From assembly GCA_903882745.1 (NCBI GenBank), contig CAIRYG010000002.1, forward strand, positions 186,001 through 250,000: a stretch of DNA of 64,000 bases, in the 5' to 3' direction. Shown piece after piece: positions 30,003-33,121 of the stretch (within the stretch, counting starts at the first letter, position 1; each line of letters starts with the position of its first letter). The stretch is from an uncultured Gemmatimonadota bacterium (GTDB lineage: Bacteria; Gemmatimonadota; Gemmatimonadetes; Gemmatimonadales; Gemmatimonadaceae). The notes under the pieces were generated by a model. That model was given only the letters and a program-made list of their open reading frames with translations, did not search any database and was not told where the DNA came from. The translations under genes were made by a program, and so were the position numbers.

Positions 30003-30110
30003 GAGAGGGCTCCGAATCACGAGAGAAGGCACACAGTGGGGCTGGTGCCGAAATCTATCGCCCGCCGTATCTTGTGGGGCAGGCTCGTTCACCTCACACC
30101 AGGACCGCCA

Positions 30111-31730
30111 GTGACCCATTCACGCCGCGACTTCGTGAAGACCTCGGCAGCCGTCGCCGCTACCACGGCGATTGGCAACCGGATTCTCACCGCGGGCGAC
30201 GCGTTCGCCTCCTCCGTTCCCTCGGCGGGAGACCCCGCCATCAAAGCGCTTATGCAAGTGGCGCTCGACGTCGCCAAGAGCGGCGGCGCGGGCTACGCCG
30301 ATGTGCGCGTCTCGGCGCGCCGCCAGCAAAACGTCAACACGCGCGAGCGTATCGTGCAGGGCGTCAGCGATACCGACACCTTCGGACTCGGCGTGCGCAC
30401 CCTGGTGGACGGCGCCTGGGGCTTTGCCGCGACCAGCGTGCTCACCAAGGACTCGATCGCCGCGACCACCCGTTCGGCGCTCGACCAAGCCAAGGCCAAT
30501 CGCGCCAGCCAGCTGAAGCCGGTAGTGCTTGCCCCCACGCCGGGCAATCAGGTCGGTGAGTGGAAGAGCCCGATCAAGACCGATCCCTTCACGGTCTCGA
30601 TTCCAGACAAAGTCGCGCTGTTGCTCGCGGCCAATGAAGCCGCGCTCAAGGTGAAGGGCGTTCGCAACGTGAGCTCGTCGATGTTCTTCCTCCGCGAGGA
30701 GAAGACACTGATGACCAGCGACGGGTCCTACATCGTGCAGACGATCTATCGCACCTCACCGTCGATCAGCATCACGGCCGTGAGCAGTGACTTCACCGAT
30801 TTCCAGACGCGCGCCAGCAGCGATATCGCGCCCATGGGACTCGGCTACGAGTGGGTCACCGACAGCCGCATGCTCGAGCGCGCGCCGGAATTCGCCGCCG
30901 ACGCGGTCGCAAAGTTGAGTGCGAAGCCGGTGGAGCCGGGACGTTACGACCTACTGCTCCACCCCAGCAATATGTGGCTGACGATCCATGAGACGGTTGC
31001 GCATCCGACAGAGCTGGATCGCGCGCTGGGCTTCGAAGCCAACTACGCCGGCACGAGCTTTGTTGCCCCGCCAGATCAGGTGCTCGGCAAGCTCAAGTTC
31101 GGCAGCGATGTGATGAACATCGTCGGCGATCGTGAACAGCCCGGCTCGCTCGGCGCCATCGGCTGGGACGACGAAGCGGTGAAGCCGACCAAGTTCGACA
31201 TCATCAAGAACGGTGTGTTCGTGGACTACCAGACCACGCGCGAACAGGCGTCGATGCTGAGCGATTACTACAAAAAGGCCAACAAGCCGGTGAAGAGCTA
31301 CGGCTGCTCGTACGCGCAGAGCTGGAGCGATGTGCAGTTCCAGCGCATGCCCAATGTGTCGCTGCAGCCGGGCAAGAACGATTGGTCGTGGAACGATCTC
31401 GTGGGGCAGATGGACAAGGGCATCGCGATCGTGGGCGACGGATCATTCTCGATCGACCAGCAGCGCTACAACGGCCAGTTCGCCGGCCAGGTGTTCTACG
31501 AGGTGAAGGGCGGAAAGATTGTCGGGCAACTGAAGGACGTGGCGTACCAGTTCAAGACGCCGCTCTTCTGGGGCTCCATGCGCGCCATCGGTGGCGCCAA
31601 GAGCTACGAGCTCGGCGGTGCCTTTGGCGATGCCAAGGGACAGCCAGGCCAATCCAACTCCGTGAGTCACGGCTGCGTGCCGGCGATCTTCACCGAGTGC
31701 AACATCCTGAACACCGGGAGAAAGGCATGA
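30111..31730 (+). CDS. tldD: TldD-family metallopeptidase with Tat signal
   Basis: 539-aa TldD/PmbA-family protein with the zinc motif HETVAH (His293, Glu294, His298), as in TldD, the catalytic subunit of the TldD/TldE heterodimer. A twin-arginine signal SRRDFVK followed by an Ala-rich hydrophobic stretch (residues 4-35) opens the protein, indicating export after folding. Canonical TldD is cytosolic, so this is an exported variant. GTG start at 30111 has AGGA six bases upstream. Its stop overlaps the tldE start (ATGA). Confidence 0.9.
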   Translation: MTHSRRDFVKTSAAVAATTAIGNRILTAGDAFASSVPSAGDPAIKALMQVALDVAKSGGAGYADVRVSARRQQNVNTRERIVQGVSDTDTFGLGVRTLVDGAWGFAATSVLTKDSIAATTRSALDQAKANRASQLKPVVLAPTPGNQVGEWKSPIKTDPFTVSIPDKVALLLAANEAALKVKGVRNVSSSMFFLREEKTLMTSDGSYIVQTIYRTSPSISITAVSSDFTDFQTRASSDIAPMGLGYEWVTDSRMLERAPEFAADAVAKLSAKPVEPGRYDLLLHPSNMWLTIHETVAHPTELDRALGFEANYAGTSFVAPPDQVLGKLKFGSDVMNIVGDREQPGSLGAIGWDDEAVKPTKFDIIKNGVFVDYQTTREQASMLSDYYKKANKPVKSYGCSYAQSWSDVQFQRMPNVSLQPGKNDWSWNDLVGQMDKGIAIVGDGSFSIDQQRYNGQFAGQVFYEVKGGKIVGQLKDVAYQFKTPLFWGSMRAIGGAKSYELGGAFGDAKGQPGQSNSVSHGCVPAIFTECNILNTGRKA

Positions 31731-33121
31731 GCCGCTCAGCCCCCAACTCACTCTACATGCCCGCCGGGATCCTCTCCCGCAGCGAGGCGCAAGAGATCTG
31801 CACGCGCGCGATCAAGAACTCGCCCGCTCCTGAAACGCGCGTCAATATCAACAGTTCAGCACGCGCCGACACGCGCTTTGCGTTGAACCAAGTGACCACG
31901 AGCGGTCAGAACGCCGACACCACGGTGACGATCACCGCGATCGCCGGCAATCGGTCTGCGAGCGTCACCACCAATCGCTTGGACGAAGCGTCACTCTCGA
32001 CCGCCGCCAAGCAGGCGTACGAGATTGCACAGCTTGTGCCGCCGAACCCGGAGCGCATGCCGGAACTTGGTGCGCAGAACTACCCCACGCCGCGCGAGCG
32101 GGCGGTGACCTTGCCCACGCCCGCGGAGCGTGCCGCCGCGGCCAAGAAGGTCACGGAGAAGGCTCGCGCCGCTGGACTCATTGCGACGGGTTTCATTGAG
32201 TGCCGCGCGGGAGCAACTGCGCTTGCGAACTCGAAGGGCCTGTTCGCGTATGACGCGAGCGCGGTGGTGACGATGACGGCCACCGTGCGTTCCACCGACG
32301 GCACCGGCTCCGGCTGGGCGTGCAGCGACGGTGAAGTCTTTGGTGATATCGACGCAGATCACGTGGCCGAAACCGCTGTGCAGAAAGCGTTGCAGTCCCG
32401 GAATCCTGTAGCGATCGAGCCCGGTCGCTACGTGACGATCCTCGAGCCGACAGCTGTGGGAAATCTGGTGCAGTTGATTGCCGGGGCCACACAGGCGCGC
32501 TCTGCCGACGAAGGGCGCTCGTTCTTCTCCAAGGCTGGCGGCGGCAACAAGATCGGCATGAAGGTGGTGGACGAGCGGGTCACACTGCTCACCGATCCTG
32601 CCGATAGTCCGAGCACCGGCGGCGGCTACGACGGCGACGGCCTTCCGCTCGAGAAGGTGGTGTGGATTGAGAATGGTGTGGTCAAGAATCTCGCGTACGA
32701 CCGCTTCTGGGCGCAGAAGCAGGGAGTACAGCCCACGCGTTCCGGTGGTGGTGGCTTTGGTGGCCCGCGTTCACTGCGCATGTTGGGCGGCACCACGAGC
32801 ACGTCGGACATGATCAAGTCCACCGAGCGTGGTATCCTCGTGACGCGGTTCTGGTATATCCGCGCCGTGGACCCGCGCACGATTCTCTACACCGGACTCA
32901 CCCGTGATGGGACGTTCTTGATTGAGAACGGACAGGTCACCAAGCCGGTGAAGAACTTCCGCTACAACGAATCACCGATCTTCTTCTTGAACAACTTGGA
33001 AGCAGTCGGTCCCGCCGTACGGGTAAACGCCTCGGAAAACCTTGGTGCCGGCGGCGCGACCTGGATGCCGACGATCAAGGTGCGCGAGTTCACCTTCAGT
33101 TCGTTGTCGGACGCCGTATAA
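31727..33121 (+). CDS. tldE: TldE/PmbA-like partner subunit
   Basis: 464-aa TldD/PmbA-family protein without the HExxxH motif, so it matches the non-catalytic TldE/PmbA subunit. Recognisable parts are the N-terminal YADVR-like region, RSFFSKAGG, LTDPADSPS and the C-terminal NLEAVGP segment. A Gly-rich loop (GGGGFGG) interrupts the C-terminal half. It has no signal peptide, unlike its TldD partner. Coupled to tldD by an ATGA overlap and closed by a hairpin 22 bases after the stop. Confidence 0.88.
   Translation: MSRSAPNSLYMPAGILSRSEAQEICTRAIKNSPAPETRVNINSSARADTRFALNQVTTSGQNADTTVTITAIAGNRSASVTTNRLDEASLSTAAKQAYEIAQLVPPNPERMPELGAQNYPTPRERAVTLPTPAERAAAAKKVTEKARAAGLIATGFIECRAGATALANSKGLFAYDASAVVTMTATVRSTDGTGSGWACSDGEVFGDIDADHVAETAVQKALQSRNPVAIEPGRYVTILEPTAVGNLVQLIAGATQARSADEGRSFFSKAGGGNKIGMKVVDERVTLLTDPADSPSTGGGYDGDGLPLEKVVWIENGVVKNLAYDRFWAQKQGVQPTRSGGGGFGGPRSLRMLGGTTSTSDMIKSTERGILVTRFWYIRAVDPRTILYTGLTRDGTFLIENGQVTKPVKNFRYNESPIFFLNNLEAVGPAVRVNASENLGAGGATWMPTIKVREFTFSSLSDAV

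Follow-up and report, generated by a model that had tools for sequence, protein, structure and literature searches.

TldD and TldE are among the most widespread bacterial peptidases and are known as an intracellular processor of RiPPs and antitoxins. The E. coli pair TldD/TldE (PmbA; MEROPS M103, PDB 5NJ5) shows activity only in its heterodimeric form, which measures about 65 Å across and is also the most stable, and it threads unfolded peptides and shortens them from the N-terminus; its metal is held by His262, His267 and Cys454 of TldD (PMC5810440). Known substrates of the Tat pathway measure 20 to 70 Å, and HybC and PaoB/PaoC are among the hitchhikers that leave the cytoplasm in this way (PMC4273604). 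The pair described here resembles HybO/HybC and PaoABC in having a signal on one subunit, in being a metal enzyme and in its comparable size; those complexes are redox enzymes, whereas our pair is of peptidase type and its hitchhiking is deduced from sequence. In a search mostly confined to literature outside subscription, neither a peptidase pair acting as a Tat hitchhiker nor a published laboratory localisation of any member of the clade treated below was found.

In the 64,000-nucleotide stretch of DNA analysed here (the window), which comes from a Gemmatimonadota MAG with a genome reported as 100% complete, the pair is encoded on the plus strand by tldD (30111 to 31730; GTG start, TGA stop, 539 aa), the gene of a TldD-type catalytic subunit with a Tat signal, and tldE (31727 to 33121; ATG start, TAA stop, 464 aa), the gene of a TldE-type partner without one. 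An identical locus is present in LacPavin_0818_WC50_MAG_63_9 (L040). The two genes share an ATGA, as the first-pass annotation had described with correct coordinates and frames, and tldE is thereby translationally coupled to tldD. Both proteins matched Pfam PF01523, PF19290 and PF19289 above cut-off, TldE consisting of these three PmbA/TldD domains only. The fold, the domain order and the two-subunit unit are those of the E. coli enzyme, and in both systems HExxxH is present in TldD and absent from TldE. The E. coli enzyme, however, is treated as intracellular and uses Cys454, while the window TldD carries a predicted Tat signal and Asp507 and belongs to a separate clade.

The structural models agreed with this assignment. 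For the TldD model (pLDDT 89.7) the best PDB match was E. coli TldD (5nj5_C, Z 34.1, rmsd 3.0, 455 residues), and the TldE model (pLDDT 91.6) matched 6j6a with a TM score of 0.85 and 1vl4 with 0.84 (by target length), consistent with the TldD/TldE fold. The best phmmer match of TldE in the PDB was 1VPB, Bacteroides thetaiotaomicron BT3649, which shares the TldE-like fold and was solved as a homodimer. A Gly-rich stretch of TldE (window positions 32740 to 32770) occurs in 29 of 144 clade TldE and in 0 of 53 canonical TldE; the corresponding loop is poorly ordered in the model.

TldD opens with MTHSRRDFVK followed by a weakly hydrophobic stretch, which confirms the first-pass reading, and residues 1 to 33 (MTHSRRDFVKTSAAVAATTAIGNRILTAGDAFA; 30111 to 30209, plus strand) are predicted to form a Tat signal peptide. 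This N-terminus scored above the cut-offs of both Pfam TAT_signal (25.8 bits, cut-off 22.7) and NCBIfam TIGR01409 (21.9 bits, cut-off 16.7). It has the n-region of (S/T)RRxFLK type, the weakly hydrophobic h-region (best 13-residue Kyte-Doolittle mean 0.84) and the AxA site of a Tat substrate, the last at residues 31 to 33 (AFA, followed by SS), and the signal would be cleaved after AFA. In the AlphaFold model residues 1 to 40 were poorly ordered, with 21 to 35 disordered, and the helix of the first domain began at residue 42. The reading frame is open back to 29796; a Shine-Dalgarno-like AGGA, identified by sequence (30101 to 30104, plus strand), lies 6 nt 5′ of the GTG at 30111, and the starts of relatives fall at or adjoining the same point (VTHSRRDFLK in L012/L041, MTRSRRDFLK in L013). 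Among 58 diverse TldD homologues, Arg5 and Phe8 were invariant, Arg6 was conserved in at least 90%, and the next invariant residue after RR..F was Gly59, so that the twin-arginine motif appears to be conserved more than chance would allow.

The signal was followed through 475 distinct family proteins from about 340 loci of Gemmatimonadota, Acidobacteriota, Bacteroidota, Ignavibacteriota, Chlorobiota and Pseudomonadota. Signals were called by a home-made rule, with public profiles as backing on a subset; most of the relatives are MAGs, and some N-termini may be misassembled. Scored against a profile of the three TldD proteins of the source genome, TldD proteins fell into a strictly bimodal distribution (43 to 137 or 346 to 1023 bits), and these two groups are canonical TldD and a clade of predicted exported type. 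A Tat-like motif was present in 157 of the 166 complete N-termini of clade TldD. Of the 58 diverse TldD, the public Tat profiles recognised 20 (Pfam) and 25 (NCBIfam), and the Pfam profile matched none of 52 TldE. In 17 further genomes of relatives every TldD examined was signalled; in other Gemmatimonadota, canonical TldD lack a signal and have the domain at their very N-terminus.

The absence of a signal from the window TldE, also claimed in the first-pass annotation, held for every upstream start, and the tldE frame 5′ of 31727 is charged and antisense-like, without a hydrophobic stretch. The same asymmetry was recovered across relatives: in 148 adjacent pairs with a signalled TldD, the number of TldE signals was zero. 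It is highly improbable that TldE leaves by a route of its own that escaped notice or has a missed upstream start, a reading for which no supporting point was found; a liberal scan of all ATG, GTG and TTG starts up to 75-90 codons upstream gave no Tat motif and two Sec-like matches, both spurious-looking, in 137 partner TldE, and many TldE begin directly at the domain. The swapped arrangement, with a signal on TldE and none on TldD, was also sought and was found in none of 190 TldE with N-termini. The combination of a putatively signalled TldD with an unsigned TldE is not a one-off; it recurs in several phyla.

Several variants of the N-terminus were observed. A lipobox lies just past the hydrophobic stretch in five signalled TldD among 147 relatives, a position that fits real export; clade TldD with a Tat signal and a lipobox in L050, L053, L072 and L074 are predicted to be membrane-anchored lipoproteins. 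In a minority of clade TldD from Bacteroidota, KRKDF replaces the RR motif, and Tat signals tolerate replacement by lysine poorly (PMC7317946). These R-K proteins (L083, L084, L089, L098, L101 and L104-L109, from Chitinophaga, Pedobacter and relatives) occur once per array and mostly adjoin an R-R paralogue. Other Bacteroidota loci (L093, L110, L112, L115 and L095) hold arrays of two or three signalled TldD genes with fewer TldE genes in the DNA covered, which suggests that a single TldE may serve several TldD there. At L277 (minus strand) the start of an unsignalled Asp-type TldD coincides with the end of a small ORF that opens with the Tat-like MDRRAFLRSSLHLVAALGAVLPALPG; this ORF may be unrelated, or it could provide a signal in trans. 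To judge by the ranges over which the models matched, the in-frame stops seen in some relatives lie close to the C-terminus of the shorter C10-type TldD and are probably its genuine termination codon.

These N-termini also bear on the reading that the twin-arginine segment does not export, or does so only in part, and that the enzyme is mainly cytosolic, the segment perhaps acting as a membrane anchor or translation starting internally at Met48. The weak h-region, the R-K variants and the position of Met48 ahead of the first domain would agree with it, but RR..F persists from one phylum to another in an otherwise variable segment, curated Tat profiles match, the lipoboxes are rightly placed and the segment is missing from canonical TldD of the same phylum. 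Moreover, weak hydrophobicity is usual in Tat signals (PMC7317946), and no ribosome-binding site was seen in the sequence before Met48. We therefore regard this reading as improbable.

The history of the signal was traced in a maximum-likelihood tree of 110 TldD cores from which the signal was excluded (quick search, no bootstrap). The clade split from canonical TldD with an SH-aLRT of 100; its base is formed by acidobacterial members without a signal, and the signal is found in a fully supported inner clade, within which two members, L277 and L308, appear to have lost it. A Tat signal was also carried by 12 acidobacterial TldD in the canonical half (a 13th listed was a false match); 8 of these 12 adjoin a TldE within the DNA covered, and it is unsigned in all 8. 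Parsimony gave six changes over the whole tree; more than one gain of the signal is therefore probable, with the exact number uncertain given the quick search and two long branches that meet at the midpoint.

The zinc site provided a second character. HExxxH (HETVAH, residues 293-298; 30987 to 31004, plus strand), aligned with His262, Glu263 and His267 of E. coli TldD, holds two predicted zinc ligands and the catalytic Glu; H293, E294 and H298 were invariant, and the motif was present in 166 of 166 clade TldD. At the alignment column of the zinc ligand Cys454, the window TldD has Asp507 (31629 to 31631, plus strand). Where this column was filled, Asp occupied it in 154 of 155 signalled clade members, the exception being L081, a Chlorobiota MAG, whereas Cys was found in 72 of 72 canonical TldD, Tat-tagged ones included. 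Cys was also found in all seven basal unsignalled clade members and Asp in the nested unsignalled L277 and L308, which places the gain of the signal and the change from Cys to Asp on the same or neighbouring branches. The motif at this site is DAKGQP with Asp versus CGK.GQ with Cys. A further residue, His520 (31668 to 31670, plus strand), was conserved in 164 of 164 clade members with a filled column and in 0 of 72 canonical TldD, and is possibly an extra metal ligand.

The Asp variant itself is not new: it was noted in 2017, "e.g., in Gemmatimonas sp.", as making the site more thermolysin-like (PMC5810440), and the Gemmatimonas protein, with the same Cys-to-Asp change, very probably belongs to the same subfamily. 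With Asp507, the window TldD departs from the M103 family in its Cys third metal ligand, and since PMC5810440 counts Asp as a possible substitute, it is best taken as a variant within the family. That paper makes no mention of Tat or the periplasm, and no literature tying the Asp ligand to export was found; the tie between the Asp change and the signalled clade is what is added here. Asp may suit an oxidising compartment better than Cys. The Tat-tagged canonical TldD keep Cys, so the switch is not required for export. The Cys-to-Asp change, which the first-pass annotation did not mention, is the further evidence that points most strongly to a separate exported subfamily.

The pairing of the two subunits was analysed in a sample of 146 distinct D-E neighbours. 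The genes overlap by ATGA in 47 of them and otherwise in 16, and lie within 30 nt of each other in 61. TldD and TldE distances correlated with an r of 0.90, much of which reflects shared ancestry, and at loci with two pairs the paralogue matching based on TldD agreed with that based on TldE in 22 of 22 comparisons, which are not independent of one another. The two proteins appear to co-diverge as fixed pairs and look like fixed partners, and such partners must meet in one compartment. Counts by PF01523 and by PF19289 both give six family members in the source genome, exactly three of each subunit, arranged as three pairs. Its TldD open with MTHSRRDFVK, MGTKRRDFLK and MSSSRRDFLK, a (S/K)RRDF(V/L)K pattern in all three, and none of its three TldE has a signal. 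A cytosolic TldE would therefore have no TldD partner in this genome, and the shared compartment is most simply extracytoplasmic. The third pair (L008:833-4200, minus strand; G000:C10) has the reverse order, with tldE first, and long Gly-rich insertions in both proteins that are absent from the other two TldD; the TldD of L341 has a similar insertion.

TldE composition was also considered as a sign of export. The clade differs from canonical TldE, but the shift lies mostly in the basal unsignalled pairs and is absent from the independently tagged acidobacterial pairs, so it was not used.

These observations bear on whether TldD could be exported alone, to act as a homodimer outside while TldE forms a cytosolic homodimer with another role. 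TldE shows no signal and has been crystallised as a homodimer, and according to a report cited in PMC5810440 the TldD of a Sulfolobus is active by itself as a homodimer. Yet the E. coli enzyme requires both of its subunits for activity and is most stable as the heterodimer, the coupling and co-divergence of the two genes would be hard to explain across a membrane, and the source genome has no signal-less TldD; export of TldD alone is therefore rather unlikely. In the E. coli structure the helices of the N-terminal domain are exposed on the outside, so a signal at the N-terminus could stick out once the dimer has formed, and the diameter of about 65 Å falls inside the size range of Tat substrates.

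The surroundings of the locus were less informative. A DinB-like gene, so named from its sequence, and the Pfam-supported lpd lie upstream of tldD, and a gene read from its sequence as acyltransferase-like lies downstream of tldE on the opposite strand; no Rfam RNA element was matched within the window. No neighbour family (peptide, transporter or modification enzyme) was conserved, the commonest occurring in 4 of 111 flanking genes, so that the neighbourhood suggests no substrate peptide, transporter or modification enzyme, and the earlier proposal of a secreted peptide as substrate was not borne out. The genome encodes one TatC and one TatA/B/E on a contig other than that of tldD/tldE, and none of its three pairs has tat genes nearby. 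TatC was found in 98 of 99 genomes of a Bacteroidota sample and is so nearly universal that its co-occurrence with the pairs carries no information.

In summary, tldD and tldE probably encode an extracytoplasmic TldD/TldE metalloprotease that is exported via Tat as a hitchhiker pair. One coupled message would yield both TldD and TldE, which would come together as a hollow sphere while still in the cytosol, with the metal loaded there; the folded dimer, and TldE with it, would then pass through the Tat translocase, led by the single Tat signal that projects from the N-terminus of TldD. Outside, the enzyme would probably trim short unfolded peptides from the N-terminus, as the E. coli enzyme does, and its job may, tentatively, be periplasmic peptide turnover or scavenging. 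Assembly before export, co-export, the identity of the metal and the job are steps that we infer; the signal on TldD only, the pairing, the clade-wide rule and the replacement of Cys by Asp are supported at the level of sequence. Weighing against hitchhiking are the R-K variants, the dispensability of the Asp switch, the unlinked tat genes, the active Sulfolobus homodimer and the failure of any export-related shift in TldE composition to recur in the acidobacterial pairs. The first-pass proposal that the heterodimer is exported whole thus retains the Tat signal, the asymmetry, the fixed pairs and the lack of a signal-less TldD in its favour, and loses the coupled tat genes and the secreted peptide.

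For the family as a whole, we favour on balance the existence of a distinct and widespread extracytoplasmic TldD/TldE subfamily, marked by the gain of a Tat signal and a change from Cys to Asp that would give a thermolysin-like site in an oxidising compartment, with TldE hitchhiking. If so, many genes of soil and water bacteria would be wrongly annotated, for instance as "modulator of DNA gyrase" or "microcin maturation", and a hollow two-subunit protease would join the few natural complexes that use Tat hitchhiking. The signal together with the Asp ligand would make this exported branch recognisable from sequence.
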